This document shows positions 962 through 55,697 of a stretch of DNA of 64,000 nucleotides, one piece after another. The DNA is from Chondrilla cf. caribensis. Taxonomy: Eukaryota; Porifera; Demospongiae; Chondrillida; Chondrillidae. Below the pieces are notes generated by a model. It did not search any database and was not told where the DNA came from. It saw only the letters and a program-made list of their open reading frames with translations. Position numbers and translations under genes: made by a program. How positions within the stretch are numbered: the stretch's first letter is position 1; each line of letters begins with the position of its first letter. The DNA is taken from the NCBI GenBank assembly GCA_964020155.1, contig OZ026567.1, positions 497,382 to 561,381 of the forward strand. Reading direction: 5' to 3'.

Positions 962-3900
962 ATGAAGAGACAGAATCTGTCCAGCAATTTCGATCAAATT
1001 GGATGTTCTTACTCTCACAAGAAGAGGGAGCGCAAAAGAATACAAATCCAATCCAATCGTCATTTCTTCCTCACAAGAATGTTCCAATCTCATAACATCA
1101 GCTTCTTCTTTGTCAGTTCCCTCCTTTGTCTACTGCTGTGTTCCTCACCACCCAGTGACACATGGAGTCTCCAGGACCTTGCCATATTTGTAGTGGTATT
1201 ATTCACCAGTGATACAGAACTGGTGTTGAGTGGCATTCTCTACAAAGCCATTCAGGGAATGGTACACTTGATGGGATGTTGTACTACAGTTATTTCAAGA
1301 TCATTCAAATCATTGACATGTAATAATGAACCTTCTGTAGTTGTCTTTCTCCTTGAAGATAAGGTATGGCGTTGGTGTTGGTATTACATTTATGCTGAAT
1401 TAAAAAGTCGAATGATTACATTGATTGAGATTGTCATTGAGCATCTCAAATTGAGGGACAAGACAACTGCTTCTATTGTTGAGGTAAATGACAAAAGCCA
1501 TGTCAAGTTTAATGAGAAAGTTATCCCACTTCCCTTCAAACAAGTGGGTTGTACATTAAGAGCTTGCAAAATGCCTGGTGTAACCAGTCACCACTTGGTA
1601 CTTCCTCTCCGTGGTGGTATGCAAATCTTTGTGAAGACCCTGACTGGCAAGACAATCACTCTTGAAGTGGAGCCAAGTGACACAGTTTACAATGTGAAGG
1701 CCAAGATTCAAGACAAGGAAGGCATCCCACCAGATCAGCAGCGTTTCATCTTTGCCGGCAAACAACTGGAAGACAGTCGTTCTCTCAGATGCTACAATGT
1801 TCGAAAACAATCCACTCTCCACTTGGTACTTCGTCTCTGTGGTGGTATGCAAATCTTTGTGAAGACCCTGAGTGGCAAGACTATCACACTTGAAGTGGAG
1901 CCAAGTGACACAGTTGACAATGTGAAGGCCAAGATTCAAGACAAGGAAGGCACCCCACCAGATCGGCAGCGACTTATCTTCGCTGGCAAACAACTGGAAG
2001 ATGATTGTACTATTGGACTCTACAATATAGTTCATTCAAGTACTCTCCACATGTATCACCGTCCTGCCCCACATATAGAAATCTCTGTGGAAACACTAAC
2101 AGGCAGAACAATTCCCCTCACAGTTGATGATTGTAGCACTATTGGTAATCTCAAAAGTAAGATTGAGGAAAGCATTGGTGTCCCAATAGACCAACAGTGT
2201 CTTCTTTTTGCAGACAAACAACTGGAAGACAGACGTACCCTATGGTACTACAAAATACAGGATAAATCCATTCTTCACTTGCTGCAACCATTTCTAGAAA
2301 GTATTCCAATCTCTGTGCAGTTCCCAACAGGTGAGACAATGTTTTTCGAATGTGAACCAAGTGACAGTGTTGCCAACCTCAAACACATCATTCAAGGACA
2401 AACAGAAATTCCACAAGAACAGCAGATCCTTACATTTGCTGGAGAACAACTGGAGGACACATGTACTCTATCGCACTATGACATTTGTAGTTCTTCCACT
2501 CTCCACCTTGGGCTGCGTTTTCTCGAAACCGTACAGGTGTTTGTGAAAATCCCGTCTGGTGAGACAATCTCTCTTGACATGAACCTTAGTGATACTGTTC
2601 ACAAAGTGAAGACCAAGCTTCAGGATATAACAGGTATACCTTTAATCACTCAGCATCTCGTCAACGTAGCAAATGAAGAGCTGAAAGATTTTTATACTCT
2701 GAGAGATTACAACATCGAGAGTAATTCCACTCTCAGCTTAGTGTATGCTGATTCCATGCAATACTACAGCGATCAATATCAAAGAGCTATGAAGGAGAAT
2801 CCAGTAGTGACACTGAGGATAGCAAAGGCCATCACCACAGGACCTCCTCGTGTGGGGAAGACCTGGTTGAAGAGTCTTCTGTTGGGACAACCTCCTCCAG
2901 AAAAGAGCCTCAGTACCCCAATCCTCGACAAAGCAGTTACCATTTCTGTACCAGACCCAATCCAGAGTGAGGGTCAGTACCACAGTGATCGTGTGCTCCT
3001 GACATCCTCCTCCAGTGGATGGAGTGTGGTAGATGATGTGACTAATTTGAAGTCACTTTTGAGTGTTGTGCAATCTGAATTGAGTACAAATCAAATCACA
3101 GATCAACCGCCTGCCCAAGAAACTACTGGTCCACCACGTATTGAGCCAGCCACTGGTACACCACCTACCCAACAAATTCTGAGTAATCCTAAACAATCAA
3201 AACAGAAAAGACCAGGAATTTTTAGCTACTTGACAGTGTTTTTTAATCCAAGTAAATCACCTGCTGAGCAAGCTATTGATCCACCACCTACTCAGCAAAC
3301 ATTTTCCAATCATTTTGCTATTGACGATGATGTGAAGGGGGGAATGTTGGTACCAAAGGTTACTGGACAAGTGTATGATTTCAATACAGTGGGTGAAATG
3401 GTCCAAGAAGCACTCAATAAACTTGACAATTCTGTAAAAGGTGTCAACCTACAAGATGAAAGATTACTGCAGTTCATTGACACTGGAGGTCAGCTCTCCT
3501 TCCACGATATCCTTCCTCTCTTCCTAACAACACCAGCTGTTTACCTTCAAGTCTTCAACATGTCACAACCTCTGGACTCACATCCCACTGATGCCATGAG
3601 ACTAGAGTCAGGACAGGTATCCTCGGAGGAGTCTCCTTTCACTAATAAGGAACTCCTGATTAGATCTCTCACAAGTATTCATTCTCTGTCAGACAGACCT
3701 CTGAATATCCCAGAATTCGATATTGTAGACACTCTACACAAATCACCCACTCAAGTCCTTGTTATTGGTACTCACAAGGACAAAGTACCACTGTCTGAGC
3801 TCCCAGAGACCATTGGCTGTGTCAGTAAAGCCATTGGAGATGCTATTAAGGACAAACCCTTTGAACGAGATGTGATCATCCATCCAGAGAGCGGCCACTA

Positions 3901-6136
3901 CTTCCATCCAGTCAACAATGCACTGTACAGTCAAGAAGTGGAGGAGAGGTCAGATGCTAACCAGCTAGTTGACTTCATCAGAGATAAAGTAGCTGCAAAC
4001 TGTGAGCGTACAAAGTGTGATGTCCCTATCACCTGGTTACTGTGTCAGACCGTTCTAAGTATACACTCGAACAAGCCTTTTCTCCCATTCAAAGATTTTC
4101 TTTCACTTTGCTTAAAATATCGTTTCGTGAAGACGTCCTCTGAATGTGCTGCCATGGTTCACTTCTTTCACACCTTGGGTCTGTTCTTCCACCATCACAC
4201 TGGACTCCCCGGAGAAGTGGACCACTTGACACCGGGTAGAGATGACTCCAACAGCACCTGTTTGGTCTTCACTGACCCCTCCTACCTGTGTCGCAACATC
4301 ACCAAGCTTTACACTGTTCAGTTTGAGAAGCACCCCAGTGGGAGGAAGAGAGAGTTGAAGGAGAAAGGCATCCTTACTCTTGACACATTGCAGGAAGTGG
4401 GAGTTGATGAAGAGCTCAATGGAGAGTGGCTCATTGGTCTAATGTCCACTCTTGGGATCATAGCAGCTGTTCCTGGAAGTGGTACAACTATAAAGGACCA
4501 AACAGAGTACTTCATGCCCTCAGCATTGCTTCCAAGTGAAGAGAGACACTCTTTTCAGAGGAAAAATTTATCTAAAGTGATGGCTATTTCCTTCAAGGAC
4601 AGGAACTACATTCCTTGTGGAGTGTTCCCAGCAGCAGTCACTTATCTCTTGTCAGCACCACAATGGTCCATCCTCACAGAGTGGTCCTCACGAACCACAA
4701 TGTACTTTGAGGTTGGAGGAGCAGACTATGTCAAACTGACAGACACCAACTCCTTCATCAAAATGGAGGTCTCCAGTGATGATGTCCTGTCTCCATCAAG
4801 CTACCGTTCCTATCGCGACACTGTATTCACAGCTGTGGAACGGTCGTACTCCAGACTGTACAAAGTGGAGGATACCACAGGGATCCTTGTTGTAGGGATG
4901 GTGTGTCCTCTAGAGGAACACAACTATAATAGAAAGCACTTTGCCAGCCTTATAGTCACTAAGGACAGTGGTACCTGCCTTTTAAGGTGTTCCAGATCCT
5001 TGGAGAATATTCGTATGGAACCTTTACAGATGTTTTCAAGATTATCTCACAAGGTACAAAGTAGTCTAATGTAGCCAGACTTTATTCCTCCATTTTCATT
5101 CTACTATTCAGTTGAATACACATTGGGGAATACCTTACCTTTCAGTGATATACAATACTCCCACTGTTTGACTGTTTGAAGTATAGTTAATAATGTTTTC
5201 CCTTGTACTTCTGTAGGCTGTTATCTCTGAGCAGCACACTTCACCAGAGGTCTCCAAAGTGAGATTGAGTGAGTATTACTTTGAACTATTCGAGTGTTGC
5301 TTTATTTTTCATTTATTTGATGTATATTCCCTCGGTAGAGTGGCTGATGGGACAATTCACTGACACTGTACGTGACATCCTGAAAGATGGCACCCATGGG
5401 GAAGTTGACATGGTTCATAAGCTACTGCTGAAACAGGTAGAGGAGATGACAGAGTTGGAAAGAGAAGCTGGTGTATGTCTTCGCAACCTTCAAGACCAAC
5501 GTAGTCGTGAAGTATTGAATCAAGTGGAAGAGAAATCTTGGAAAGGTTGGTATTTGTATAAAAGTTTTACAACCATTATTTTCTCCGTGTACTCCTGGAC
5601 CAGGTGTATAATAGTTGTATATAGTTTTTGTCCTCTCGTATATAGACCTTTTACGAATGAGTGTGCAGAGTAGTTCCTCCACTGCTTGTGGTAGTCCTCT
5701 CCATCACACCACTGTACATTCATAGGAGTTTTTCATATTACCCAATAAGCAATGGAGTACATTTCCTCATTGCTCAATATCATGTACATGACCTGGGATA
5801 GTCTGATGATTGTTATTCTGTTATTATTTTGTAGACATGACACCATCCGACTGTTCCTTCCCTTTCATCTTGGAGAAAGTCCCTGTTTGGTCTCCCCTTG
5901 CAATAAGTCTTGGTGTGCCTTTCGACAAAGTGAAGTCCTTACAAGCTCAGCCTGACCCCATCATGGGTGCCTTTGAGGCTCTCAAACTGTGGCAATCCGA
6001 GCATCCAACTATAGCCAGAGGATGTCCCCCAACCTGGGAGTTCTTGTTGAAAGCTGTGAACGACTGTGCTTCTCCTCGTGTCAGCAACGAGATAGCTGAA
6101 AGGGTAACCATAGAGGGGACATGGTCTATTCAGTGA
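962..6136 (+). CDS. Gene 1: ubiquitin array - Roc-COR GTPase - Death domain protein
   Basis: Four coding exons are inferred from GT-AG borders that keep frame: 962-5053, 5217-5268, 5339-5545 and 5835-6136 (about 1550 aa). The start is the ATG after a conserved acceptor-like attttcag. Domains: an N-terminal segment with a hydrophobic stretch; a degenerate ubiquitin tail ending near residue 219; two ubiquitins (220-371); three diverged ubiquitin-like units (372-600); a GTPase with P-loop GPPRVGKT (~627), DTGGQ (~840) and THKDK (~937); a COR region with a winged-helix-like stretch ending YFMPSALLP; a helical exon; and a C-terminal Death domain of about 95 aa. P-loop, DxxGQ and THxDK are ROCO hallmarks, and DAPK1 is a known Roc-COR-Death protein. 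The ubiquitin fusion is unusual. A Pro/Gln-rich insert separates G1 from G3. The role is inferred to be death or immune signalling. If the first intron is not spliced, the stop is at 5072-5074. Confidence 0.8.
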
Positions 6137-8364: not shown

Positions 8365-8532
8365 TTCTGTTGGTGGTCCCTGTAGGTGGTCCCTGTAGGT
8401 GGTCCCTGTTGGCGGTCCCTGTAGGCGGTCCTTGTAGTTGGTCCCTGTAGGCGGTCCTTGTAGGTGGTCCCTGTAGGTGGTCCCTGTAGAAAGGCGGTTC
8501 TGTAGGTGGTTAGGGTTAGGGTCCCTATAGGC
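8365..8532. repeat. 13-bp minisatellite, copy 1
   Basis: Tandem units of about 13 bp on the theme ggtccctgtaggt/c, about 11 units with variants. Related arrays are at 25790-25945, 40705-41075 and 48985-49885. A short ttagggttaggg run sits at its right end. Confidence 0.85.
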
Positions 8533-8961: not shown

Positions 8962-13615
<4,654 letters not shown>

Positions 13616-14451: not shown

Positions 14452-14623
14452 ACCTGGCTTGTTCCGCCCACGTTCTCGGTAAGGTGTGAAGATCATAACT
14501 TAACACCCACAAAGCGTTACTATCAAACGTGTGATGATTATATACTTAACACATAACAATAATTGAAGGAACGTGTTGGGTATAATCGGCCTGCTAAGCG
14601 CAACGCACGAAATCGGCGATACT

Positions 14624-26366: not shown

Positions 26367-27329
26367 TTGGTACTCCGTCTCCGTGGTGATATGCAAATCT
26401 TTGTGAAGACCCTGCAGCTGCCTGGCAAGGCAATCGTTCTTGAAGTGGAGCCAAGTGACACAGTTGACAGCATGAAGGCCAAGATTCAAGACAAGGAAGG
26501 CATCCCACCAGATCAGCAGCGTCTCGTCTTTGCTGGCAAACAACTGGAAGACGATCATACTCTTGGAGACTACAACATTGGAAAAGAGTCCACTCTCCAT
26601 TTGGTACTTCGTCTCCGTCGTGGTATGCAAATCTTTGTGAAGACCCTGACTGGCAAGACGATCACTCTTGAAGTGGAGCCAAGTGACACAGTTAACAATG
26701 TGAAGGCCGAGATTCAAGACAAGGAAGGCATCCCACCAGATCAGCAGCGTCTCATCTTCGCTGGCAAACAACTGGAAGACGGTCATACTCTTGGAGACTA
26801 CAAGATTCAAAAAGAGTCCACTCTCCATTTGGTACTTCGTCTCTTTCATGGTATGCAAATCTTTGTGAAGACCCTGACTGGCAAGACGATCACTCTTGAA
26901 GTGGAGCCAAGTGACACAGTTAACAATGTGAAGGCCGAGATTCAAGACAAGGAAGGCATCCCACCAGATCAGCAGCGTCTTATCTTCGCTGGCCACCAAC
27001 TGAAAGACAGTCGTACTCTTGGAGACTACAACATTCAAAGAGAGTCCACTCTCCATTTGGTACTTCGTCTCTGTGGTGATATGCAAATCTTTGTGAAGAC
27101 CCTGACTGGCAAGACAGTCACTCTTAAAGTGGAGCCAAGTGACACAGTTGACAGTGTGAAGGCCAAGATTCGAGACAAGGAAGACATCCCACCAGATCAG
27201 CAGCGTCTTATCTTCGCTGGCCGCCAACTGGAAGACGGTCGTACTCTTGGAGACTACAACATTCAAAAAGAGTCCACTCTCCATTTGGTCCTTCGTTTCC
27301 GTGGTGATATGCAAGACAATCACTCTTGA
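26367..27329 (+). CDS. Ubiquitin array of the GTPase-less fifth unit
   Basis: Four full ubiquitin repeats, with the start of a fifth, in one open frame (320 aa), each about 76 aa and close to canonical ubiquitin ([20 protein letters not shown] type). None of the unit junctions is Gly-Gly: the ends read RLRGD, RLRRG, RLFHG, RLCGD and RFRGD. The first unit has a 2-residue insertion (KTLQLPGKA). The fifth is cut by a 26-bp deletion between gcaa repeats after 27312, which shifts frame and gives a stop. Upstream, the usual N-terminal segment is missing: 5'-block sequence (ctcaactacaagtga) joins directly to the ubiquitin linker at about 26354. It may be a separate short gene or the 5' end of a unit whose Death exon is at 29737. 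Confidence 0.6.
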
Positions 27330-28397: not shown

Positions 28398-30032
28398 AGG
28401 AACAGTATACTGGTGCCGAGGAGAATATGCCTAAAGGTCACACTCGTGTGAAAGTCGATATGCTATCAAGGCCCAAACAGGACCTGGTGAAGTTCAAGAA
28501 TCAACTTGGTGTAATACTAGCCAATCCTCCTGAGAGACCATGGAAGGGTGAGTGGTGATAAGGGTCCAGGCATGCATTAGATTTTAACACAGTTCCAAAG
28601 AAACTCTGTATCTGCATCAATAGATGATATGGACAAAATTTACCATCTTCAACTTAATATTTGCATAGTATTCTCTTTGCATAATTCTGTATTCTAACTA
28701 TGGTTTGATATATTATGAGGGGGCCATTTTTTCCACATCATCCCTGTACGTACATATAGAGTGCTATCTCACTCTATAATACTGTACGTATAGACTTTAT
28801 ATCCATAACAGCTACAAAAACACACTAAGTTAAATATAAAGGCAGCATAACAATACCACAGCACAATCGTGTTGTCATTGATCTATTTATCAGTACTATA
28901 CATATTTCGACATAGCTACAGGCATCTGTGTGTACACAGATGTATATGGGTCCATTTAACGTGTTAGTCAGTATACTATAGCTGATTCTGTTCAGCATGT
29001 TTGCCGGCACACAATCATGCTCTTATCCTGTATGTTGACATTTTGTCTGACAATACTAAATTACTGCAGTTCTCATTTACCTGTAGTGGACCAGTGTACT
29101 GGTGCCAAGGAGGACATGCCCAAAGATCACACTCGTGTGAAAGGTGACATGCTTTCTACACCCAAACAGGACCTGGTGAAGTTCAAGAGTCAACTTGGTG
29201 TAAAACTGAATAATCCTCCCAAGAGATCATGGAAAGGTGAGTGGCCGTAAGGATTCAGACATGTATTACAATCCAAGCGGGCTCATGCTCAGTACACTAG
29301 TCAACATATGCTCAGCGCACTTGCCAATATACATGCATCCATGCCTCTTATCCTAATCAAACTGCATGTATGGCTGTTGGCCACTCTGCATGGAATGGAT
29401 TTGAGGCTTGCAGACTGTGGCATGCAAGGGATTCCCTCCACCTTCATATTGCTGGTTGTATATAGATAATAAGCAATTTGGTTAGTGAGCTTAGCGATGA
29501 GATGAACTTTACCAATGGGTGCTTGGTGGAAAGGCTAATGGTAGCAGGCCAGACTAGACATGTATAGGCTCGGAGAGGTGTAAGTGGTTTTGAAGAACCT
29601 CTCCACTGGCTCCCTATGGCCTCTCAAGTGCATCACTTCACACAGTATAATAGTAACTAACCATACTTTCTATGATATTGTATACACATATGAACTATGA
29701 TGGGGTCAGAATATGATTATTCTCTTGTTTTTGTAGACAAGACACCATCTGAATGCGCATTTTCTTATATCTTGGAGAAAGTCCCCAATTGGCCTGATCT
29801 TGTAATAGCCCTTGGGGTACCTATTGATAAAATCAAATTCCTATTGAAAAATTCCAGCATTGGTGGCTATGAAGCTCTCAAACTGTGGCAGTCTAAGCAT
29901 AAGACTATAACCAAAGGATACCCCCCAACCTGGGAGTTCTTGTTGAAAGCTATTAATGACTATATTAGTCCTCGTGTCAGCAATGAGATAGCCGAAAGAG
30001 CAACTTTAGAGGAGGCATGGTCTATTCAGTGA
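28398..30032 (+). CDS. Duplicated helical exons and Death-domain exon of the fifth unit
   Basis: Two 150-bp exon-like copies (28398-28547 and 29087-29236), each with a tgtag acceptor, GGTGAG donor and phase 1 borders, are related to the helical exon 3 of gene 4 (a YTG...DML pattern). A Death-domain exon follows at 29737-30032, phase 1, 98 codons, ending WSIQ like the other genes. All three are open and splice-compatible, although a direct join of both helical exons would be a duplication not seen elsewhere. The first exons could come from the ubiquitin array at 26367 or be lost. A Death domain usually mediates homotypic interaction; here the partner is unknown. Confidence 0.6.
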
Positions 30033-32603: not shown

Positions 32604-32719
<116 letters not shown>

Positions 32720-33296: not shown

Positions 33297-33695
33297 CCTG
33301 AAGAAGCCCAAGCAGACGAAAGGTTGTACATTGAAGATTTATTTATGTTGAAATCGTGACATGTGTTTTCAGTCCAAATAGAAGAAATCATATCGACTTC
33401 CAATCCGGGCTGTTGTTGGAGTATCTATGGTCTAATGAAACGAGAGTAGTTTCCGGTTACGCCCACTCAATTACTTCCGGCCATTAATCGATTAATCATT
33501 GGTGAAATGAGAGTAGTTTTCAGTTACCCCACTCATTGACAATTACTTCCGGCGATTAATCGATTATTAATCATTGGGTTAATATGCCTCTCGCGTTTGA
33601 ACACGACTGACGTGCCATACTGGAGAATAGAACTCCACATACAAGACTACTCGTATAAGCTATAAAGTATTACGTGTACTTCTGTCGTCGAAATA

Positions 33696-36600
33696 ATGGA
33701 CCCGAATCGTCAAGACGCTTTGGTGAAGTTGGAAAGTGACCTAAGAGTGAACCTCTCCTTAGTTGGTGTTGTTCCTCTGTTAGAGAAGACCGAAGACGGA
33801 CGCGGAGGCTTTATGACCCGTGAAGAGAGAATGGCGGTGGAAGCAATTCCACAGGAGGACGATCCTCGAAGAGTGAGCAAGATTATCGACACCTTGAGAA
33901 AGAAGGACAACGATGCTTTCGATAGATTTTGTGAAATTTTAAGACAAAGCGGAAACAAAGTTTGGGAGAAAAGAATCAGAGAATATGAGGAAAGGGCAGC
34001 TGTACGAAGATCTGAAAAACACTTCGATGAAGGTACCAAATGTACTTGATTTATGAATTGATTCGTTTATTGTATACGTTACAAATTAGTATTATTCACA
34101 ACTTTTTTTGTTGTGATATCAAAATATTATAACAGTATGCACTGTATGGACTACTACAAAAACAGGCTCATACTTGTCGATGATATGATTAGCAACTATT
34201 ATGTTTGTATTGTCTGCATTGTGCCTATAAGTAGTTTGACTTGACCAACAGTGAGGGAGTGGAATAATTAGTGATCTATTATTATGCCTTATACTACTCC
34301 TTATTCTATAGGAAAGGTTAGAACCGCTAGAGTGTACGTTGATGAGCCACAGATGCCAGATCTGGAAGACCATCTACGCAAGATGGACCACGAACTGTGT
34401 ACATGTATTTTACAACTACAACCGGAGAAGTATATTTCCCTTAAACTATCCTGTGAAGACTATATTGGATCTTTAAAACACAGCATGCGCAAGCCCTTTA
34501 AGTACCAGCCCTACCCTCTTCCCAATAACAGGCAAAAAATGTGGAGGGAGATTAGGGAGTTTTGGAACCAACTGGATGTACGCTTTCCTGCAACTATCAT
34601 TGATCTCATTGAAGAGTCTAGTCAGAAAAGTCAGCTGTCGATCCTCCTCAAAGAGTATCATAATCTCATCGCAAAGTTTTCAGGGAACACTCTTGAAGAA
34701 TTCCACAAAGAAAATATAGGTCTCTCCAATGGTCCTCACCTCACTGTGAAAGTAAAGGACAATCCGACCTTGAAAATGATACTTGACCTGGAGGACTACT
34801 TGGTGAAGTTGGGAGTGGAGAAAAGCCTTTTTAAGGGATTCACTCATGGGTGTGTGGTCCTGTATTTCCTGATCAGTCCAGCCTCAGTCAAGCTGTTGCC
34901 TTTCACTTTATCAACGTATTTTCCAGAGCTGGTTTCAATGGGAGTCCTCACCATCACAGTACCTGGTCAGTGGGAGGTGGACATTGCCACTAGAAAGATT
35001 ACACTGAATATGGCTAAGGTACGTGCATCTGGGACGATTGATCGATACATATTCGTTTCAGATCTGATTATTGTCAATAGTGCAAACAAATCAATTAATC
35101 ACAGGAAGTAATTAGGTGAGTAGAACAGGAAGTCAGCCCCATCTTATTACCCAGAACCTTCACTCCATGGGTTCAATTTTGTACTTCAAGTGTACCTGAA
35201 ATGTGAAGGACTCTAAAGACTCCACATCACGTCTATTGGATGACTACTCAGTCTAATAAAATGGTGGTGGTTTCCAGTTACACCCACTTAATTACTTCCA
35301 GTGATTAATTGATCAATCTATCATTTACTATACTCTGATAATTGATTTGAAAATTATAGCCAATTCCCAGCCATAGCAAACCTGTCATGATTATTGACAA
35401 CCACATGTTACATCATGCATGTCACAATATGTATGTCTAAGCAGTTATATACCAAATATCTGTTTGATATGTGTACATAGTTGACCCTTATTGTGTTATG
35501 TGAGGCCAGGTGTTATGAAGCAGTTAGACTAGTACAACTATAATTAAATGTTGCTGTCAATGCAAAATTACAGTAGCTGCATATAAGCCTACATCTAATA
35601 GTACTACGTATACATGTATACTTTTATGTACTTGGTCTAACGATCACATTGGATGACAAAGATGTGCTATCTTGCGACCATTCAGGATGAACTAAATGAG
35701 GAAACTCCTTTGCTTTTTGAAGAATTGTCAATACTCCAGCAGTCTACTGTACAAAATCCTCAGGTATGTAGTTATAGAGTTATGTAGTTGAGCTACTCAA
35801 GTCCTCCCTATTGTTAGGTCATTTTTTTGGAATCAGTTAATACATTGTAAAAATGGTGGTCATGCAGTTTGTAGTACATGAATGTGTGTAGGTACCACAG
35901 GAGTTGATGCAGGATTAGAAGCTGAGGGAAAGTGACTGAGTATATATAGAGGCTCAATAGTTATCAGTAGTTCACTGTTTTATCCAAGATTAAACTAATT
36001 AAGTCTCAAAACCTTGATGTGGTCACTAGTATGACTCTGGAGATGAGATAGATGAAATGGAAATATGGGAGAAGGAAATGTTTAGGAAGGAATCTCTTTC
36101 CAACTCTCTCCACATTCTCTGGGTTCTGTATGAGCCCATACATGTGCAGTTTGTATATAAAGATATGTATGTACATGCGTTGTATGTAGTAATGTATGTA
36201 TATGTACATTGCTGCATGTTGACCCAGTCAACTAGCAAGTTGAATTTTTCTCAGTTAATCACTTTTTGTGGAGTATACATACTTTTCATAGAATTGTGTT
36301 TGTAGTTTTATACCTGTATAACCATGTATATACATGCATGGTTCTGGACTACATGAAAGTGCACTCCTTAGGACAAGTGTTGCTGATGTAGTGAGATCTT
36401 AAGAGTGGTTTGGTGTTGTCCGTCATATTGTATTGCTGACATATTTTCTTTCTGCAAACTGAATCACAGGGTAGGGACATCCCCCCCAAGCAGTGGACCA
36501 GGTCTTGTTGTTGAGAGCCGTACTGGACAGGACCAGGTAGAAGAGATATGGAATAACTCCCTGATAGCTATCTCACCCAAAGACGATGATTTGCTCCATA

Positions 36601-38462
36601 TTGATGAATCTGATCCCAAAGTATTGATTGGAAGTGAACACGCAGTCAAGACAGTGGACAGTGGAGTAAGTGAGTAGCAGTGTATTGTTGTTCAATTTTC
36701 TAGACCTTTGTATTCTCACGTACACCTGCTGGGGCTGTAGCAGATATACAGACACTTCAGCTTCATTGTTCATGAGGGTGAAACATACCACATATGCACA
36801 TATGTATATAGCCTTGTACCTAAACAGCCTGTGGCTGTTTACGATGTGGTGGTAGAGAAGGACGGCCTGGTACACAATATGTGCAGATATGCATGGGAAA
36901 CTGTCAGTTTACTGAATATCTGTATTCCTATGCATCGTGGTATTTGTAACTGTAAATTAAATCAGTATCATCTGTTTAAATGCTTCATAGGTCATCTACC
37001 TGAGACTTCTGGAGGGAGATATTTACCATTCCACCCTTTGGGCCTAGGTCTCCGTGGTGGTATACAAATCTTTGTGGAGACCCTGACTGGCAAGAGAATC
37101 ACTCTTGAAGTGGAGCCAAGTGACACAATTGACAATGTGAAGGCCAAGATTCAAGACAAGGAAGGCATCCCACCAGATCAGCAGCGTCTCATCTTCACTG
37201 GCAAAGATCTGGAAGACGGTCGTACTCTCGAAGACTACAACATTCAAAAAGAATCCACTTTCCACTTGGTACTTCGTCTCCGTGGTGGCATGCAAATCTT
37301 TGTGAAGACCCTGACTGGCAAGACAATCACTCTTGAAGTGGAGCCAAGTGACACAGTTAACAATGTGAAGGCCAAGATTCAAGACAAGGAAGGCATCCCA
37401 CCAGATCAGCAGCGTCTTATCTTCGCTGGCAAACAATTGAAAGACGGTCGTACTCTTGGAGATTACAATGTTCAAAATGAGTCCACTCTCCATTTGGCAC
37501 TCCGTTTCCACTCTGGTATGCAAATCTTTGTGCTGACCCTGACTGACAAGAGAATCACTCTTGAAGTGGAGCCAAGTGACACAGTTGACAATGTGAAGGC
37601 CAAGATTCAAGACAAGGAAGGCATCCCACCAGATCAGCAGCGTCTCATCTTTGCTGGCGGGTTACTGGAAGACGGTCGTACTCTTGAAGATTACAATGTT
37701 CAAAATGAGTCCACTCTCCATTTGGCACTCCGTTTCCACTCTGGTATGCAAATCTTTGTGAAGACCCAGACTGGCAAGAGAATCACTCTTGAAGTGGAGC
37801 CAAGTGACACAGTTGACAATGTGAAGGCCAAGATTCAAGACAAGGAATGCATTTCACCAGACCAGCAGCGTCTCATCTTTGCTGGCCAACACCTTGAAGA
37901 CGGTCGTACTCTTGTACACTACAACATTCAAAAAGGTTCAACTCTCAACTTGGTATGCCATCTCCGTGGTACACCCCTAGGTGATTGTATTCTAGTCTTT
38001 GTGAAGGTCGGGAAACACAAGACTGTTGCTACTGAAGTGGAGCCAAGTGACACAGTGGATGATGTGAAGACCAAGATTCAAGACAAGCAAGGCATCCCAC
38101 CAGATCAGCAGTGCATTTTTTTCAAAGACAATGAACTGGAAGGTGGTCGTACCGTAGATAGCTACGGCATTAGTGAACAATCCACTCTCCACCTGGTGCC
38201 TCTCCGTAGCAGGACTGTTTCTGTTAGAGTGAGTCGCGATGAAGTTGTCCGAATCCCAATCAATTTTCAAATTGATACCGTTGCTGATATCAGAAGACGG
38301 GTGGAGGAGGAAAAAGGAGTTCTACCACAGCAGTTCTTCTTATATGGTGAACCACTCCCAGAGAAAGACGACGAGACACTACTTGAGTATGCCCATGTAC
38401 CCAACTTGACTCTCCAGACTTACCAAGAACAAGGAACTCAGTCCAAGTGTTCAATGATGTAG
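33696..38462 (+). CDS. CARD - domain X - polyubiquitin - CaaX protein (gene model partly inferred)
   Basis: Exon 33696-34032 encodes a CARD-like helical bundle of about 100 aa ([47 protein letters not shown]). Exon 34312-35018, phase-matched, encodes domain X, an uncharacterised 235-aa helical domain. Further candidate exons are 35686-35763 (phase 0) and about 36475-36669 (phase 1 donor AA/GTGAGT). The large last exon 36991-38462 encodes four near-canonical ubiquitins (starting about 37062, 37291, 37519 and 37747), two diverged ubiquitin-like units and a tail QSKCSMM, a CaaX box. The phase between the third and fourth exon does not match, so one exon is missing or the locus is two genes. Junctions RLRGG, RLRGG, RFHSG and RFHSG show progressive loss of Gly-Gly. 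Function is unknown; death-fold signalling at membranes is inferred. Confidence 0.6.
34312..35018 (+). other. Domain X exon (uncharacterised helical domain)
   Basis: A 235-codon exon, phase 1 in and phase 0 out. Visible features: [19 protein letters not shown] at the start, SCEDYIGSL, a charged middle, then [29 protein letters not shown] and [18 protein letters not shown] cannot name the family. The degraded paralog at 32058 shows it is a repeated module in this cluster, always near ubiquitin. Confidence 0.6.
35110..35680. other. Intronic or intergenic, nothing assigned
   Basis: Unique AT-rich sequence between the domain-X exon and the next candidate exon. A segment near 35255-35320 (aaaatggtggtggtttccagttac) resembles 33440-33560, a short dispersed repeat. 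Confidence 0.4.
36991..38462 (+). other. Polyubiquitin exon with C-terminal CaaX box
   Basis: A 490-codon exon after the acceptor cttcatag. It holds four ubiquitin units and two diverged ubiquitin-like units (about 37985-38210 and 38215-38415). The second diverged unit has Arg/Glu-rich helix residues ([11 protein letters not shown]). The protein ends CSMM; X = Met is typically farnesylated in CaaX proteins. Plant/animal MUB/UBL3 proteins are single ubiquitin-fold proteins with a CaaX end; a tandem version is not one I know. Confidence 0.8.
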
Positions 38463-41736: not shown

Positions 41737-44700
41737 ATGAATCTGTCCAGCAATTTCGATCAAATTGGATGTTCTTACTCTCACAAGAAGAGGGAGCGCA
41801 AAAGAATACTAACCCAATCCAATCGTTATTTCTTCCTCACGAGAATGTTCCAATCTCATAACATTAGCTTCTTCTTTGTCAGTTCCCTCCTTTGTCTACT
41901 GCTGTGTTCCTCACCACCCAGTGACACATGGAGTCTCCAGGACCTTGCCATATTTGTAGTGGTATTGTTCACCAGTGATACAGAACTGGTGTTGAGTGGC
42001 ATTCTCTACAAAGCCATTCAGGGGATGGTACACTTGATGGGATGTTGGATAAATTTAAAATCACTCAAATCAATGACATGTAACAGGAAACCTTGTGCAA
42101 TTGTCTTTCTGTTGAAAGATAAGTTATTGTGCTTATTTTGGTATTACATCTATGCTAAATTAAAAAGTCGAATGATTTCATTGATTAAGATTTTCATTAA
42201 GCATCTCAAATTGAGGGACAGGAGAACTGCTTCTATTGTTGAGTTAAATGACGTAAGCCATGTCGAATCTGATGAGAAAGATATCCCACTTCCCTTCAGA
42301 CAAGTGGGTTGTACATTAAGAGTTAGCAAAATGCCTAGTGTAGCCAGTCACCACTTGGTACTTTGTCACTGTGATGGTATGCAAATCTTTGTGAAGACCT
42401 TAACTGGCAAGACTATCACTCTTGAAGTGGAGCCAAGTGACACAGTTGACAATGTGAAGGTCAAGATTCAGGACAAGGAAGGCATCCCACCAGATCAGCA
42501 GCGTCTTATCTTCGCCGGCAAACAACTGGAAGATGGTTGTACTCTCAGAGAAACCAACATTCAAAAAGAATCAACCCTTCACTTGGTACTTCGTCTCCAT
42601 GGTGGTATGAAAATCTTTATAATAACCTTGAGTGGCAATACAATCACTCTTGAAGTGGAGCCATTGGACACAGTTCACAATGTGAAGACCAAGATTCAAG
42701 ACAAGGAAGGTATCCCACCAGATCGACAACGTCTTCTCTTTGATGGCAAAGAACTGGAAGATTGTCGTAGTCTTGGAGACTACAACATAGGTCACAGAGA
42801 GGAGACTCTCAACTTATTACACCGTCCTGCCCCACATATAGAAATCTCTGTGGAAACACTCACAGGCAGAACAATTTCCCTCACAGTTGATAATTGTAAC
42901 ACTATTGGTAACCTCAAAAGTAAGATTGAGGAAAAGATTGGTGTCCCAATAGACCAACAGTATCTTCTTTTTGCAGACCAACAACTGGAAGACAGACATA
43001 CCCTATGGTACTACAAAATACAGGATAAATCCATTCTTCACTTGCTGCAACCATTTCTAGAAAGTATTCCAATCTTTGTGCAGTTCCCAACGGGCGAGAC
43101 AATGTGTTTCGAATGTGAAACAAGTGACAGTGTTGCCAACCTCAAACACGTCATTGAAGGACGAACAGAAATTCCACAAAAACATCAGATCCTTACCTTT
43201 GCTGGTGAACAGCTGGAGGACACATGTACTCTATCACACTACGACATTTGTAGTTCTTCCACTCTCCACCTTGGGCTGCGTTTTCTTGAAACTGTACAGG
43301 TGTTTGTGAAAGTCCCGTCTGGTGAGACAATCTCTCTTGACATGAACCTTAGTGACACTGTTCACAAAGTGAAGACCAAGCTTCAGGATATAACGAATAT
43401 ACCATTAATGACCCAGCATCTCGTCAACGTAGCTAATGAAGATCTGAAAGATTTTTATACGCTGAGAGATTACCACATTGGGAGTAATTCCACTCTCAGC
43501 TTAGTGTATGCTGATTCCATGCAATACTACAACGATCAATATCAAAGAGCTATGAAGGAGAATCCAGTGGTGACACTGAAGATAGCAAAGGCCATCACCA
43601 CAGGACCTCCTCATGTGGGGAAGACCTGGTTGAAGAGTCTTCTGTTGGGACAACCTCCTCCAGAAAAGAGCCTCAGTACCCCAATCCTTGACAAAGCAGT
43701 TACCATTTCTGTACCAGACCCAATACAGAGTGAGGTTCAGTACCATAGTGATCGTGTGCTCCTGACATCCTCCTCCAGTGGATGGTGTGTGGTAGATGAT
43801 GCGACTAATTTGAAGTCACTTTTGAGTATTGTGCGAACTGAATTGAGTACAAGTCAAATTGCTGATCGACCACCTACCCAAGAAACTACTGGTCCACCAC
43901 CTACTCAGCAAACCACTGGTCCACCACCTACCCAGCACACTACTGGTCCACCACCTACGCAGCAAACCCCTGGTCCACCACGTACTCAGCAAACATTTTC
44001 CAACTGTTTTGCTATTGACGATGATGTGAAAGGGGGAATGTTGGTACCAAGGGTTACTGGACAAGTGTATGATTTCAATAGAGTGGGTGAAATGGTCCAA
44101 GAAGCACTCAATAAACTCGACGACTCAGTAAAAGGTGTCAACCTACAAGGTAAGAGATTACTGCAGTTCATTGACACTGGAGGTCAGCTTGCCTTCCACG
44201 ATATCCTTCCTCTCTTCCTAACAACACCAGCTGTTTACCTTCAAGTCTTCAACATGTCACAACCTCTGGACTCACATCCCACTGATGCCGTTAGACTGGA
44301 GTCAGGACAGGTATCCTCGGAGGAGTCTCCTTTCACTAATAAAGAGCTCCTCATCAGATCTCTCACAAGTATTCATTCTCTGTCAGACAGACCTCTGAAT
44401 ATCCCAGAATTCGGTATTGTAGACACTCTACACAAATCACCCACTCAAGTCCTTGTTATCGGTACTCACAAGGACAAAGTACCACTGTATGAGCTCCCAG
44501 AGACCATTGGCTGTGTCAGTAAATCCATTGGAGATGCTATCAAGGACAAACCCTTTGAACAAGATGTGATCATCCATCCAGAGAGCGGCCACTACTTCCA
44601 TCCAGTCAACAATGCACTGTACAGTCAAGAAGTGGAGGAGAGGTCAGATGCTAACCAGCTAGTTGACTTCATCAGAGATGAAGTAGCTGCAAACTGTGAG

Positions 44701-46883
44701 CGTACAAAGTGTGATGTCCCTATCACCTGGTTACTGTGTCAGACTGTTCTCAGTATACACTCGAAGGAACCTTTTCTCCCATTCAAGGATTTTCTTACAC
44801 TTTGCTTAAACTATCATTTCGTGAAGACATCCTCTGAATGTGCTGCTATGGTTCACTTCTTTCACACCTTGGGTCTGTTCTTCCACCATCACACTGGACT
44901 CCCCGGAGAAGTGGACCACTTGACACCAGGTAGGGACGACTCCAATAGCACCTGTTTGGTCTTCACTGACCCCTCCTACCTGTGTCGCAACATCACCAAG
45001 CTTTACACTGTTCAGTTTGAGAAGCACCCCAGTGGTAGGAAGAGAGAGTTGAAGGAGAAAGGCATCCTTACTCTTGACACATTGAAGGAAGTAGGAGTTG
45101 ATCAAGAGCTCAATGGAGAGTGGCTCATTGGTCTAATGTCCACTCTTGGGATCATAGCAGCTGTTCCTGGAAGAAGAAAGGACCAGATAGAATACTTCAT
45201 GCCTTCAGCACTGCTTCCAAGAAAAGGAATACAAGTTCCTGAGAGGAAAGACGTATCTAAAATGATGGCTATTTCCTTCAAGGACAGGAACTACATTCCA
45301 TGTGGAGTGTTCCCAACAGCAGTCACTTATCTCTTGTCAGAGCCAAAATGGTCCATCCTCACAGAGTGGTCCTCACGAACCACAATGTACTTTGAGGTTG
45401 GAGGAGCAGACTACGTCAAACTAACCGACACCAACTCCTTCATCAAAATGGAGGTCTCCAGTGATGATGTTCTGTCTCCATCAAGCTACCGTTCCTATCG
45501 CGACACTGTATTCACAGCTGTGGACCAGTCGTACTCCAGACTGTACAAAGTGGAGGATATCACAGGGATCCTTGTTGTGGGGATGGTGTGTCCTCTAGAG
45601 GAGCACAACTATAATGGAAAGCATTTTGCCAGGCTTATAGTCACTAAGGACAGTGGTACCTGCCTTTTAAGGTGTTCCAGATCCTTTGAGAATATTCGTA
45701 TGGAACCTTTACAGATGTTTTCAAGATTATCTCACAAGGTACAAAGTAGTCTAATGTAGCCAGACTTTATTCCTCCATTTTCATTCTACTATTCAATTGA
45801 ATACACATTGGGGAATACCTTACCTTTCAGTGATATACAATACTCCCACTGTTTGACTGTTTGAAGTATAGTTAATAATGTTTTCCCTTGTACTTCTGTA
45901 GGCTGTTATCTCTGAGCAGCACACTTCACCAGAGGTCTCAAAAGTGAGATTGAGTGAGTATTACTTTGAGACTATTTGAGTGTTGCTTTATATTTCATTT
46001 ATTTGGTATGTTTTCCCTCGGTAGAGTGGTTGATGGGACAATTCACTGACACTGTACGTGACATCCTGAAAGATGGCACCCATGAGGAAGTTGACATGGT
46101 TCATAAGCTACTGCTGAAGCAGGGGGAGGAGATGACAGAGTTGGGAAGAGAATCTGATGTACGTCTTCGCAAGCTTCAAGACCAACATAGTTGTGAAGTA
46201 TCGCATCAATCAGATGAGAAATCTTGGAAAGGTTGGAACTGTATATTGCAAAATTTTCATGACCACTAATTTGTGCAATTTTGCGATTTGTAAACATTCA
46301 TAAACATTTCTGTTGTGAGTATTTTCTCCATATTATATGTATAGGTTACGTATGTACTGAGAGGAGTAGACATGCGATTTACCTGCTTTGCAAGCCATAT
46401 ATGTCATTGCACAATGCGTTGTTTTCATGACCATATACATGGGATTGTATGGTGTATTGTATGCATCACACGTCTGATAGCTGGGGTTGATATTATACTC
46501 ATCCACCTAGGTACACAGTGGTTGTGAGTATATTATAATGAAATATACATCAAGATGCAACGTAAGATGTTTAACATTTTGTATTTCTAGAAAAGACCCC
46601 TTCTGAAGCTTCGTTCTCCTTCATTTTGGATAAAGTACCTGTTTGGCAGAAGTTGGCTATCAGTCTCGGAGTACCTATTGATCAAGTGGAGGCACTACAA
46701 GCTGATCCCATCATGGGTGGATTTAAGGCTCTCAAACTGTGGCAGTCTGGACACTATACTTCAAATGGATGTCCTCCAACTTGGGACTTCTTACTGAAGA
46801 CTGTACATAAATGTCTTGGTTCTCGTGTCAGCGATGAGATAGCCGAGATTGTAGCTGTAGAGGAGACATGGTCTATTCCATGA
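41737..46883 (+). CDS. Gene 3: ubiquitin array - Roc-COR GTPase - Death domain protein
   Basis: Exons 41737-45738, 45902-45953, 46025-46231 and 46591-46883, all in phase (about 1517 aa). The layout is that of gene 1: N-terminal segment, ubiquitin-like tail, two ubiquitins (from residue 215; the second is diverged, [12 protein letters not shown]), three ubiquitin-like units, Roc-COR, helical exon and Death domain ending WSIP. The P-loop reads GPPHVGKT (Arg to His, ~623), with DTGGQ (~813) and THKDK retained. Between them lies a tandem 27-bp coding repeat (TTGPPPTQQ type, 43885-44000, about 4-5 units), longer than in gene 1 and absent from gene 2. The start lacks nine bases present in genes 1, 2 and 4, in frame. 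Close in sequence to gene 1, so probably a recent duplicate. Confidence 0.8.
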
Positions 46884-49885: not shown

Positions 49886-52800
49886 AGTAGTTGTGTACAT
49901 AATATGTATAATACATTTCTTTCTGAATGGAGTATTCTGTCCCTCATCATCTGTCTGTACATGTAGGTAGCCACTGCTGCCTGACTCCTGGCTGTGTACC
50001 TCAAAGTGCAGTGACATCATTGAAACCTATAAAGGAAGAATCCATTCCCAACAACCCTTGTGTTCAAAGTATGTTAGATAGCACACTACATCAGTATGCC
50101 ATGGAGAATACAGAATATGTATACTGTCACATTTATGTGTCATGTGTGTGCAGTACACTATTAGGATCATATTAATTTCATTCTGCAGGTCCTTCAAGTT
50201 GATAACCTGTGTGTACCATTCCATCTCTCAGCTATTGCTGTGGTCCTCTTGACTCTGTACCTCAACTACAAGTGAAGATCTGTTAGGTAACAGCTGGTTT
50301 GAAGCTGCTGCGAAGAAGCTGTCATCATCCATCCACACCACAGGAAGGATCTACATAATAAGTACATTATACTGTATTAGCACGTCTGTTCCGTTTTGCG
50401 TTTATTGTGTTCGTGCGCTGACTCGGTTAAAATAGAAGGACACAGATTGACTGTGTTGTACAGCTTTCAGACTGGTGATTTCTGATTTCAGACATCAGAC
50501 TTGCAATATCCATTTTCAGGGATCAAGTGAATATGAAGAGACAGAATCTGTCCAGCAATTTCGATCAAATTGGATGTTCTTACTCTCACAAGAAGAGAGA
50601 GCGAAAAAGAATACAAATCCAATCCAATCGTCATTTCTTCCTCACAAGAATGTTCCAATCTCATAACATTGGCTTCTTCTTTGTCAGTTCCCTCCTTTGT
50701 CTATATACTGCTGTGTTCCTCACCACCCAGTGACACATGGAGTCTCCAGGACCTTGCCATATTTGTAGTGGTATTATTCACCAGTGATACAGAACTGGTG
50801 TTGAGTGGCATTCTCTACAAAGCCATTCAAGAAGGGGTACAATTGACGGGATGTATTACAGTTATTTCAAGATCACTCAAATCAATGATATGTAATAATA
50901 AGCCTTCTGTAGTTGTCTTTCTGCTGGAAGATAAAGTATGGTGCTGGTGTTGGTATTACATTTATGCTGAGTTAAAGAGTCGAATGATTTCATTGATTGA
51001 GATTTTCATTGAGCATCTCAAATTGAGGGACAAGACAACTGGTTCTATTGTTGAGGTAAATGACGTATGCCATGTCAAGTCTGGAGATAAGAAAGTTATC
51101 CCACTTCCCTTCAAACAAGTGGGTTGTACATTAAGAGCTTGCAAAATGCCTAATGTAGCCAGTCACCACTGGGTACTTCGTCTCCGTGGTGGTATGCAAA
51201 TCTTTGTGAAGACCCTGACTGGCAAGACTATCACTCTTGAAGTGGAACCAAGTGACACAGTTGACAATGTGAAGGTCAAGATTCAAGACAGGGAAGGCAT
51301 CCCACCAGATCAGCAGTGTCTTATCTTTGCTGGGAAACAACTGGAAGATTGTTGTACTCTCAGAGAAACCAACATTGAAAACGAATCCACTCACCACTTG
51401 GTACTTCGTCTCTGTGGTGGTATGAAAATCTTTGTGAAGACCCTGACTGGCAAGACTATCACTCTTGAAGTGGAGCCAAGTGACACAGTTGACAACGTGA
51501 AGGCCAAGATTCAGGACAAGGAAGGCAGCCCACCAGATCAGCAACTTCTCATCTTCGCTGGCAAACAATGGGAAGACGGCCATACTCTCAAAGACTACAA
51601 CCTTCAAATGGAGTCCCCTATCTATTTGGTACTTCGTATTCGTACTTATATTATGCAGATCTTTGTGAAGACCCCGACTGGAAAGACGATCATCCTTGAA
51701 GTGAAGCCAAGTGACACAGTTGACAATGCATGTGAAGGCCAAGATTCAAGACAAGAAAGGTATCCCACCAGATCAGCAGTGTCTTATCTTTGCTGGCCAC
51801 CTACTGGAAGATGGTTGTACTCTTGGAGAGTACAACATTGGAAAAGAATCCACCCTTGACCTAGTAAGCACCAAGGAATTCTTTACTTATCAATATCAGG
51901 AGGCGCTGAAGAAGAATCAAGTAGTTAGCTTACGGATAGCAAAGACCATCACCACAGGACCTCCTCGTGTGGGGAAGACCTGGTTGAAGAGTCTTCTGTT
52001 GGGACAACCTCCTCCAGAAAAGAGCCTCAGTACCCCAATTGTCGACAAAGCAGTTACCATTTCTGTACCGGATCCAATCCAGAGTGAGGTTCAGTACCAC
52101 AGTGATCGTGTGCTCCTGACGTCCTCCTCCAGTGGATGGAGTGTGGTAGATGATGTGACTAATTTGAAGTCACTTTTGAGTGTTGTACAGCCTAAAATGA
52201 GTACAAATCAAATCTCCAACCCACAATCCACCCAGCCAACCACCAACCACCCACTTGCCCAGCAAAGTACTGTCCAGCTACCTATCCAAGAAACTACTAC
52301 CAAATTGTCCACTCCATCTAAAAAGAAAATAATAGGATTTTATAGTTGGTTAAAGTCACGTTTTCATCGAAGAACAGTAGGTGAGATGAATAGAGTACAT
52401 GATATGGATGAAGTACATGATATGGATGAAGTGCATGATATAGATGAAGTGAGTGAAATGGTCCATGGAGCACTCAGCAAACTCGATGACTCAGTGGAAG
52501 GTGTCAACCTACAAGATGAGAGATTGCTGCAGTTCATTGACACTGGAGGTCAGCTCTCCTTCCACGATATCCTTCCTCTCTTCCTAACAACACCAGCTGT
52601 TTACCTTCAAGTCTTCAACATGTCACAACCTCTGGACTCACATCCCACTGATGCCATGAGACTGGAGTCAGGACAGGTATCCTCGGAGGAGTCTCCTTTC
52701 ACTAATAAGGAGCTCCTCATCAGATCTCTCACGAGTATTTATTCTTTGTCAGACAGACCTCTGAATATCCCAGATTTCGGTATTGTAGACACTCTACACA

Positions 52801-54284
52801 AATCACCCACTCGCGTCCTTGTTATCGGTACTCACAAGGACAAAGTACCACTGTCTGAGCTCACAGAGACCATTGACTGTATCAGTAAATCCATTAGAGA
52901 TGCTATCAAGGGCAAACTCTTTGAACAAGATGTGATCATCCATCCAGAGAGTGGCCACTACTTCCATCCAGTCAACAACGCACTGTACAGTCAAGAAGTG
53001 GACGAGAGGTCAGATGCTAACCAGCTAGTTGACTTCATCAGAGATAAAGTAGCCAAATGCTGTGAACGTACAAAGTGTGATGTCCCTATCACCTGGTTAC
53101 TGTGTCAGACCGTTCTCAGTATGTACTTGAGCAAACCTTTTCTCCCATTCAAGGATTTCCTCACACTTTGCCTGAAGCATCGTTATGTGACGACGTCCTC
53201 TGAATGTGCTGCCATGGTTCACTTCTTTCACACCTTGGGTCTGTTCTTCCACCATCACACTGGACTCCCTGGGGAAGTGGACCACTCAACATCAAGTGGG
53301 GGTGACTCCAATAGCACCTGTTTGGTCTTCACTGACCCCTCCTACCTGTGTCGCAACATCACCAAGCTTTACACTGTTCAGTTTGAGAAGCACCCCAGTG
53401 GTAGGAAGAGAGAGTTGAAGGAGAAAGGCATCCTTACTCTTGACACATTGCGGGAAGTAGGAATTGACCAAGAGCTCAATGGAGAGTGGCTCATTGGTCT
53501 AATGTCCACTCTTGGGATCATAGCAGCTGTTCCTGGAAGAAGAAAAGGCCAAATAGAATACTTCATGCCTTCGGCGTTGCTTCCAAGAGAAGAGATACAA
53601 GTTCCTCAGAGGAAAGAAGTATCTAAAGTGATGGCTATTTCCTTCATTGACAAGGACAGGAACTACATTCCTTGTGGAGTGTTCCCAGCAGCAGTCACTT
53701 ATCTCTTGTCAGCACCAAAGTGGTCCATCCTCACAGAGTGGTCCTCACGAACCACAATGTACTTTGAGGTTGGAGGAGCAGACTATGTCAAACTGACAGA
53801 TACCAACTCCTTCATCAAAATGGAGGTCTCCAGTGATGATGTCCTGTCTCCATCGAGCTACCGTTCCTATCGTGACACTGTATTCACAGCTGTGGAACAG
53901 TCATACTCCAGACTGTACAAAGTAGAGGATACCACAGGGATCCTTGTTGTGGGGATGGTGTGTCCTCTAGAGGAACACCGTGATAGAGGGAGCCATTTTG
54001 CTCGGATGACTGTCGATGAAGTCAACAGCACCTGCTTTGTAAGGTGTTCTGGAATTTCCAAAGTATTGCCCAAGAAGTCTGTAGAGATGTTTTCCAGATT
54101 ATCCCACAAGGTGTGTGTACCTATCATGTGCATACATATATTCATGCACTGCACGGGATTTGGTTTTCCTACAGTATATCTTACATTATTGACTACTGTC
54201 ATTCCACACAAAGCATTAAATTTCAAAGTAGGAGTTCCATGCTCTCTGTTTGATATCGATATACGACATAGCCTGCATACATAA

Positions 54285-55395: not shown

Positions 55396-55697
55396 ACAAG
55401 ACACCAGCTGACTGTTCCTTCCCTTTCATCTTGGAGAAAGTTCCTGTTTGGTCTCCCCTTGCAATAAGTCTTGGTGTGCCTTTCGACAAAGTGAAGTCCC
55501 TACAAGCTCAACCTGATCCGATCATGGGTGCCTTTGAGGCTCTCAAACTGTGGCAATCCGAGCATCCAACTATAACCAGAGGATGTCCCCCAACCTGGGA
55601 GTTCTTGTTGAAAGCTGTAAACGACTGTGCTTCTCCTCGTGTCAGCAATGAGATAGCTGAAAGGGTAGCTGTAGAGGAGACATGGTCTATTCAGTGA

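Follow-up and report, generated by a model that had tools for sequence, protein, structure and literature searches.

Does the stretch of the Chondrilla cf. caribensis genome analyzed here (the window; 64,000 nt, positions 497382-561381 of contig OZ026567.1, referred to as C22, in an assembly of 137 Mb and 37 contigs) encode proteins in which a head-to-tail array of ubiquitin (Ub) is built onto a ROCO-type GTPase (Roc-COR) and a Death domain, and what would such an array be for? An earlier note, made from the letters of the window, had described four such units, and this was borne out, as each of them has a Ub array followed by Roc-COR and, farther downstream, an exon of Death type, with the GTPase motifs present in 4/4. 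In genes 1, 2, and 3, the array and Roc-COR are not split over separate exons but lie uninterrupted in single open frames (911-5074, 8962-12447, and 41683-45759; 1387, 1161, and 1358 codons, respectively, counted stop to stop, with predicted start codons). Ahead of Roc-COR, five Ub or Ub-like units were counted in gene 1, three in gene 2, and five in gene 3, and the frames match Pfam ubiquitin with E-values of 1e-105, 1e-92, and 2e-97, respectively. Identity to ubiquitin is only ~43-51% for several of the units from genes 1 and 3, which are therefore called Ub-like. These results indicate that the units almost certainly belong to a multi-copy family with a Ub array and Roc-COR in one frame, onto which a Death domain is predicted to be spliced. 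The parts of the four units are as follows.

962..5053, plus strand: gene 1 exon 1, with the N-terminal part, five Ub/Ub-like units, and Roc-COR (open frame, Pfam, unit table; donor at 5054)
1097..1240, plus strand: gene 1, two hydrophobic segments of the N-terminal part (Kyte-Doolittle at least 1.6; membrane association predicted)
~1619-2743, plus strand: gene 1 Ub/Ub-like units
~2813-5047, plus strand: gene 1 Roc-COR
5217..5268, plus strand: gene 1 exon 2 (GT-AG borders; match to the related protein P0024)
5339..5545, plus strand: gene 1 exon 3, a predicted coiled helix (GT-AG borders; match to P0024)
5835..6133, plus strand: gene 1 exon 4, Death-type domain
9010..12426, plus strand: gene 2 exon 1, with the N-terminal part, three Ub units, and Roc-COR (open frame, Pfam)
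~9658-10332 and ~10399-12420, plus strand: gene 2 Ub units and Roc-COR, respectively
12628..12679, plus strand: gene 2 exon 2 (GT-AG borders)
12751..12957, plus strand: gene 2 exon 3 (GT-AG borders)
13323..13612, plus strand: gene 2 exon 4, Death-type domain
41737..45738, plus strand: gene 3 exon 1, with the N-terminal part, five Ub/Ub-like units, and Roc-COR (open frame, Pfam)
~42379-43506 and ~43579-45732, plus strand: gene 3 Ub/Ub-like units and Roc-COR, respectively
45902..45953, plus strand: gene 3 exon 2 (GT-AG borders)
46025..46231, plus strand: gene 3 exon 3 (GT-AG borders)
46591..46880, plus strand: gene 3 exon 4, Death-type domain
50537..51859, plus strand: gene 4 front, with a frameshifted N-terminal part and Ub units until the frameshift in the third
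51705..54284, plus strand: gene 4 rear, with the remainder of the third Ub and Roc-COR
55396..55694, plus strand: gene 4 Death-type exon

The helical exon and the Death exon proposed by the note were found in genes 1-3 behind GT-AG introns, whereas in unit 4 the last exon is present and exon 3 matches only partly. Exons 2 and 3, which are 52 and 207 bases long, respectively, have in-frame GT-AG borders in genes 1-3 as well as in copy 7, which lies outside the window, these borders being identical in the 4 DNA-matched copies out of the 9 copies on C22, and the last exon, with its AG acceptor and a stop at the same place, stands behind 9/9 C22 copies. Unit 4 (50537-54284) carries two frameshifts, one in the N-terminal part and one in the third Ub, the latter also present in a near-identical copy outside the window. 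Copies 4 and 5 have this third-Ub frameshift in common and differ at synonymous sites (dS, synonymous substitutions per site) by 0.004 in Roc and in COR and by 0.165 in the Death exon, suggesting that they are recent duplicates. Two further pieces, on the same strand, make up a stretch (26391-30029) in which a Ub array is followed by a Death exon with no GTPase between them; this is either a copy that has decayed or a gene of shorter build.

26391..27381, plus strand: Ub array, no GTPase behind (open frame 26358-27329)
29737..30029, plus strand: Death-type exon, no GTPase ahead

The family of four proposed for the window is larger in the genome, where ten Ub-fused genes were found, nine on C22 (498-636 kb) and one on C9; 8/10 are uninterrupted, over 1161-1595 codons. 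A Roc-COR query matched 70 stretches in the genome, 13 of which are the ten Ub-fused genes (main stretches at least 71% identical), while the other 57, at 25-39% identity over their main stretches, correspond to ~49 further ROCO-like genes on C1, C2, C3, C5, C8, C12, C14, and C19. Many of these are clustered, so that ROCO genes are greatly expanded in the host. The Ub search, which scored a limited candidate set, gave no match at the ~49 genes.

Relatives were collected by two protein searches, seeded with the GTPase part of gene 3 (82 matches) and with that of a distant relative (93 matches). The sets include host genes: P0002 and P0015 are window proteins, and P0016 is the C9 copy, identical over the stretch used in the tree. 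The relatives were grouped according to their identity to gene 3 into lineages A (61-95%), B (58-67%), and C (39-48%), with the short protein P0079 placed in lineage A despite its 48% identity. Pfam ubiquitin (PF00240) was found in 78/82 relatives of gene 3 (the exceptions being P0024 and P0080-P0082) and in 92/93 relatives of the distant query (the exception being P0123). In a midpoint-rooted tree (41 rows, alignment starting at the G3 motif), the 33 Ub-ROCO rows, including the fragment P0024, grouped together (98/94), apart from the 8 Ub-free rows, and the nearest Ub-free row was a host gene on C3 (L025, at C3:5104736; 93/92). L025 and P0123, which is outside the tree, share the Roc-COR clade and the Death exon with the Ub-ROCO family but, unlike it, have a frame without ubiquitin. 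The simplest reading of the tree would be a single gain of the Ub array before the lineages split. Two hydrophobic segments were observed in the N-terminal part of 9/9 copies (copy 4 being outside the set), and one membrane-like segment in 4/4 lineage B proteins looked at.

The identity of the domains behind the array was assessed from motifs and from profiles. The note had given the first GTPase motif of the units as GPPRVGKT; this is correct for all units other than gene 3, which has GPPHVGKT, and all four units contain DTGGQ and GTHKDK. By pattern, G1, G3, and TH[KI]D were found in 78/79, 76/79, and 65/79 relatives, respectively, and in 10/10, 10/10, and 9/10 host genes; the TH-D type of G4 is what we take to be the Roc form of this motif. 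The hidden Markov model check suggested by the note succeeded for ubiquitin (E 1e-105 to 1e-92), whereas Roc, COR, and Death scored under the Pfam cut-offs. Pfam COR-A follows Roc with E-values of 1.5e-3 to 6e-6, under the cut-off, with no match at E 0.01 in unit 4; hhalign gave 98% probability for COR against three distant proteins, whose own COR-A matches are also just under the cut-off. In the fusion frames, Pfam gave no leucine-rich repeat (LRR) match at E 0.01, and no kinase (at E 0.01, within these frames) or ankyrin match. When the GTPase part was searched against PDB sequences, no ROCO match was returned, and when the profile included Ub, the best 60 of 528 matches were ubiquitin-type chains. 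Pfam or NCBIfam alone was rejected as proof of Roc, COR, and Death, the scores being under the cut-offs or empty.

For the Death exon, 3/6 exons matched Pfam Death at E 0.04-0.2, under the cut-off, and in a wider alignment 8/23 members matched at E up to 1 (best E 0.039). A first PDB profile search with this exon gave no Death match, and a second gave nothing significant, with the CRADD Death domain (E 0.78) listed after an unrelated endolysin (E 0.49). The downstream exon of the Ub-free ROCO gene on C3 scored over the Pfam Death cut-off (E 1.9e-6), and the Ub-ROCO Death profile matched it with an hhalign probability of 97% (E 2e-11). P0123, Ub-free and related to the C3 gene, contains Roc-COR and Death over the cut-off within one protein, and the PDB chain nearest to its Death domain is the LRDD/PIDD Death domain (E 0.01). 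By homology, these matches identify the last exon of the Ub-ROCO genes as a predicted Death domain.

Whether the exons form one protein was addressed through P0024, a Joint Genome Institute protein from lineage B whose contig measures 2.6 kb and in which Roc, COR, the coiled exon, and Death lie in a single frame. When genes 1, 2, 3, and 7 are modelled as spliced, they align to it over all three exon joints, with small gaps. P0024 looks like a spliced sequence; its front end, where the array would stand, is absent, so that the Ub-Roc link rests on the unbroken genomic frames. In these frames, the distance from the last Ub to the P-loop was short throughout, being 29-36 residues in lineage B and most of lineage A, 42-60 in three lineage A proteins, and 41-56 in lineage C.

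A survey of the array detected 797 units in 86 proteins, with related and duplicate proteins counted separately, and 1 to 19 units per protein. The Gly-Gly tail was found in 0/86 last units, which adjoin Roc, and in 109/711 internal units, and LRGG in 58/797 units; the host's two true polyubiquitin genes have LRLRGG at 9/9 unit ends. Because Gly-Gly is gone from all last units, the array should not be cut off the GTPase by ordinary processing. The 76-residue spacing was exact in 21/31 host joints and 198/557 lineage C joints. Core positions were kept at 78-92%, depending on lineage, the Ile44 patch at 48-72%, and other exposed positions at 55-75%, and the eight NEMO-type recognition residues were all kept in 37/711 adjacent unit pairs; these residue sets, including the NEMO contacts, are our assumption of the respective positions.

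The DNA of the units points to a source within the host. Host ubiquitin differs from what we take to be the human sequence at three positions, Val23, Asp24, and Gly57, and among 22 near-canonical fused units of the host, Val23 was found in 22/22, Asp24 in 18/22, and Gly57 in 13/22. The consensus of these 22 units is host ubiquitin, and lineages B and C carry other signatures. At the DNA level, 22 of the 39 units from the 8 intact host copies (hand-chosen as ungapped and mostly near-canonical) were compared, and for 22/22 the closest sequence was the polyubiquitin gene that lies at C22:820 kb, ~185 kb past the last copy. A tree of the Ub-unit DNA left aside the window's two Ub-only arrays. The dS between the units and this gene was 0.12-0.58 (median 0.22), compared with a median of 1.05 between the host's two polyubiquitin genes, and the third-position identity for 22/22 units was 0.61-0.90 with the C22 gene versus 0.47-0.66 with the other. 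The presence of young array DNA in an old fusion implies that homogenization or re-acquisition has recurred; the data suggest that the array has been repeatedly homogenized with host ubiquitin, with the direction and mechanism being inferred.

Four minisatellites of one 13-base unit (CCCTGTAGGTGGT, rotated) were observed in the window (8367-8489, 25795-25942, 40720-41051, and 49169-49869), and each of them ends 0.4-0.7 kb upstream of a Ub-array frame. They are possible promoters of recombination among the Ub arrays.

The earlier note had considered the family probably functional and had proposed the ratio of nonsynonymous to synonymous substitution rates (dN/dS) among genes 1-3 as a check. The ratios are not near 1 throughout, being 0.29-0.43 in COR and 0.20-0.32 in the Death exon, whereas they reach 0.53-0.84 in Roc and 0.81-1.14 in the N-terminal part. 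Across the copies, the median was 0.25 for the Death exon (50/55 pairs below 0.5; 11 exons, including the solitary one), 0.32 for COR (36/36 pairs below 0.5), and 0.52 for Roc including its variable insert (13/36); a missed pattern kept copy 9 from the Roc and COR sets. The N-terminal part had a median of 0.79 (0/36 pairs below 0.5), in a set that did not include copy 4. Within the N-terminal part, pN/pS (the proportional counterpart) was 0.31 in the hydrophobic start (the block's first 40 columns) and climbs from 0.59 to 0.99 in the rest. For the first Ub units of seven copies, dN/dS was 0.15-0.47 in 20/21 pairs and 0.72 in one, and for single Ub units against host ubiquitin it was 0.03 to 0.77.

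We found no description of a Ub array-ROCO-Death architecture in the literature searched, which was mainly open-access (most subscription journals and bioRxiv being outside its coverage), in agreement with the note, which knew of no described family starting with head-to-tail ubiquitin. The main text of PMC6337361 classifies ROCO proteins into three groups and lists LRR, ankyrin, kinase, and Death as partners of Roc-COR, without the word ubiquitin; that of PMC11378527, which describes as many as forty domain combinations of animal ROCO proteins, likewise lacks the word. In the main text of PMC6337361, the DAPK1-type proteins (group 3) resemble the Ub-ROCO proteins in having Roc-COR followed by a C-terminal Death domain, in a cell-death setting; the Ub-ROCO frames differ in having no kinase or ankyrin match and a Ub array ahead of Roc. 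The MFHAS1/LRR-ROCO proteins (group 1, same text) and the brown-algal LRR-ROCO candidate immune receptors of the PMC11378527 main text share a repeat array ahead of Roc-COR, multiple copies, and a varying repeat number, whereas the Ub-ROCO repeats are ubiquitin, not LRR, and are followed by a Death domain. Among the conflict systems in the main text of PMC8195603, AP-GTPase (ROC)-COR resembles the family as an invader-sensing switch, and metazoan TRADD-N fused to polyubiquitin resembles it in joining polyubiquitin to a death-signalling module; there, polyubiquitin is linked to TRADD-N, not to ROC-COR-Death as here. TRADD-N gave no match in a genome search whose control also gave none, so that its absence is not shown. 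Polyubiquitin genes, finally, share head-to-tail units, often with the 76-residue spacing, and one host locus shows DNA kinship with the arrays, but the Ub-ROCO arrays have degenerate tails, a large C-terminal extension, and diverging units. What appears to be new here is a set of ROCO-Death proteins with a Ub array; ROCO-Death itself was already known.

The neighborhood contains a second kind of gene with ubiquitin, as follows.

33666..38459, plus strand: second gene kind (exon joining predicted only)
33666-34046, plus strand: CARD-like frame (Pfam CARD E 9e-5, just under the cut-off)
34275-35018, plus strand: conserved domain without a name
37062-38459, plus strand: C-terminal Ub array ending in CSMM

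The CARD-like frame, conserved domain, and Ub array occur together in at least four places on C22 (484, 489, 531, and 595 kb), and two further places have the conserved domain and Ub array without a CARD match. In 4/6 arrays of this kind, a terminal Ub-like domain ends in CSMM or CSVM, the CSMM end being a possible prenylation box. A PDB search with the nameless domain gave nothing significant. At 32113-33150, there is a broken-up copy of this domain and then, past a long TG repeat, one Ub-like unit; this stretch looks decayed. Genome-wide, 101 Death matches were found; together with the CARD-Ub pieces and the ~49 ROCO genes, they are consistent with an expanded immune repertoire.

What would the array do? 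We tentatively favor, over a spacer or a scaffold, the explanation that it is a bait, i.e., that a ROCO-Death switch carries ubiquitin as a built-in decoy, and we assign a probability of roughly 45% to the joint reading of the anatomy described above plus a danger-sensor function with permanently attached ubiquitin as bait. ROCO proteins act as switches, and Death domains as assembly platforms. A ROCO-Death ancestor would have gained the array once, ahead of the three-lineage split, and the array would have been repeatedly re-made from, or homogenized with, host ubiquitin DNA, tracking current host ubiquitin while older units decay. The bait would be acted on by ligases, deubiquitinases, and other Ub-directed activities, including ones brought in by invaders, and this would release the Roc-COR switch, probably via a change in dimerization, whereupon the Death domains would assemble and recruit cell-death or inflammatory adaptors. 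The hydrophobic N-terminal segment likely anchors the protein at the membrane in this lineage. A bait would explain the permanence of the array, its likeness to current host ubiquitin, the copy number, and the variable length. An extended version, in which conversion from the polyubiquitin gene on the same arm updates the bait, Gly-Gly loss fixes it, tampering fires the ROCO-Death switch, and the CARD-Ub sibling shares the locus, so that the entire cluster may serve to guard ubiquitin through a family of integrated-decoy immune receptors, is unlikely as a whole.

Several observations weigh against the bait or the anatomy on which it is built. Homogenization keeps units alike irrespective of function, so that likeness to host ubiquitin alone is no evidence of bait; conservation of the Ile44 patch is not above that of other exposed positions (random draws, p 0.63-0.84), and in genes 1 and 3 the second unit has dN/dS of 0.62 and 0.77 against host ubiquitin. 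On the side of the anatomy, frameshifts occur in 2/10 host copies, complete exons 2 and 3 were found in 4/9 C22 copies (exon 3 matched partly in copies 4, 5, and 8, and exons 2/3 not found in copies 6 and 9), Roc and COR score under the Pfam cut-offs, and a Pfam Death match is absent in the other 3/6 Death exons. The tree program gave long-branch warnings for the midpoint-rooted tree, and the C3 fork (93/92) is under the starred level. An intron may lie inside the Ub-Roc open frame, as the joint is known from genomic frames, and the immune role is drawn from domain company alone.

The strongest competitor, although itself unlikely, is a neutral or structural spacer, in which a stable Ub repeat, lengthened and shortened through conversion and unequal crossing-over, has no ubiquitin-specific role and merely keeps the GTPase at some distance from the N-terminal part. 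The core being kept while the Ile44 patch and other exposed positions drift, the unit number of 1 to 19, and a likeness to host ubiquitin that homogenization alone explains without selection all suit a spacer, whereas the first-unit dN/dS (0.15-0.47 in 20/21 pairs) indicates some constraint, and the repeat is always ubiquitin-like though the lineages are ~40% identical in the GTPase part. The in-built linear ubiquitin scaffold suggested by the note, an uneditable imitation of a Met1-linked chain that would recruit NEMO-like readers to the Death platform, has become distinctly improbable: the head-to-tail order and the exact 76-residue joints are as it predicts, and a single CC2-LZ match was obtained in the genome (E 1.4e-4, under the cut-off), but all eight assumed contact residues occur in just 37/711 adjacent pairs, and the Ile44 patch is not favored. 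As first choice it was dropped on these residue data, which it suits least of the three readings. A genome search for OTULIN gave no match, nor did its control, so that absence is not shown. That host deubiquitinases cut the joints of a ubiquitin polyprotein, freeing ubiquitin and a Ub-tagged GTPase, is very unlikely, because Gly-Gly, although kept in 109/711 internal units (and LRGG in 58/797 units), is missing from all 86 last units and from most internal ones, and the units set free would not equal host ubiquitin. Least credible is a pseudogene cluster or annotation artefact; the frameshifts in unit 4 and its sister copy and the Ub array and Death exon standing without a GTPase would fit it, but 8/10 copies are open across 1161-1595 codons, COR dN/dS is below 0.5 in 36/36 pairs, and related proteins occur on many other contigs.

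Other features observed nearby are unrelated in kind. Frames at 14567-18668 match a zf-AD-like domain (E 1.9e-4, under the cut-off) and DUF6589 (E 1.4e-14), and a RecQ-type helicase (DEAD, Helicase_C, RecQ_Zn_bind) extends over several frames on the minus strand at 18662-20196. Three cathepsin-like genes (L031, L032, and L034) have Ser in place of the expected catalytic Cys, a replacement that is a feature of sponge silicateins, in keeping with a sponge source although no proof of one. Rfam gave zero matches in the window.

With a Ub array joined for good to both a GTPase and a Death domain, ubiquitin signalling and death-fold signalling would meet in a single gene product. The family thereby raises two testable questions, namely, whether a host protein can carry ubiquitin itself as a decoy for Ub-directed attack, and whether gene conversion can keep a ubiquitin decoy matched to the real protein.

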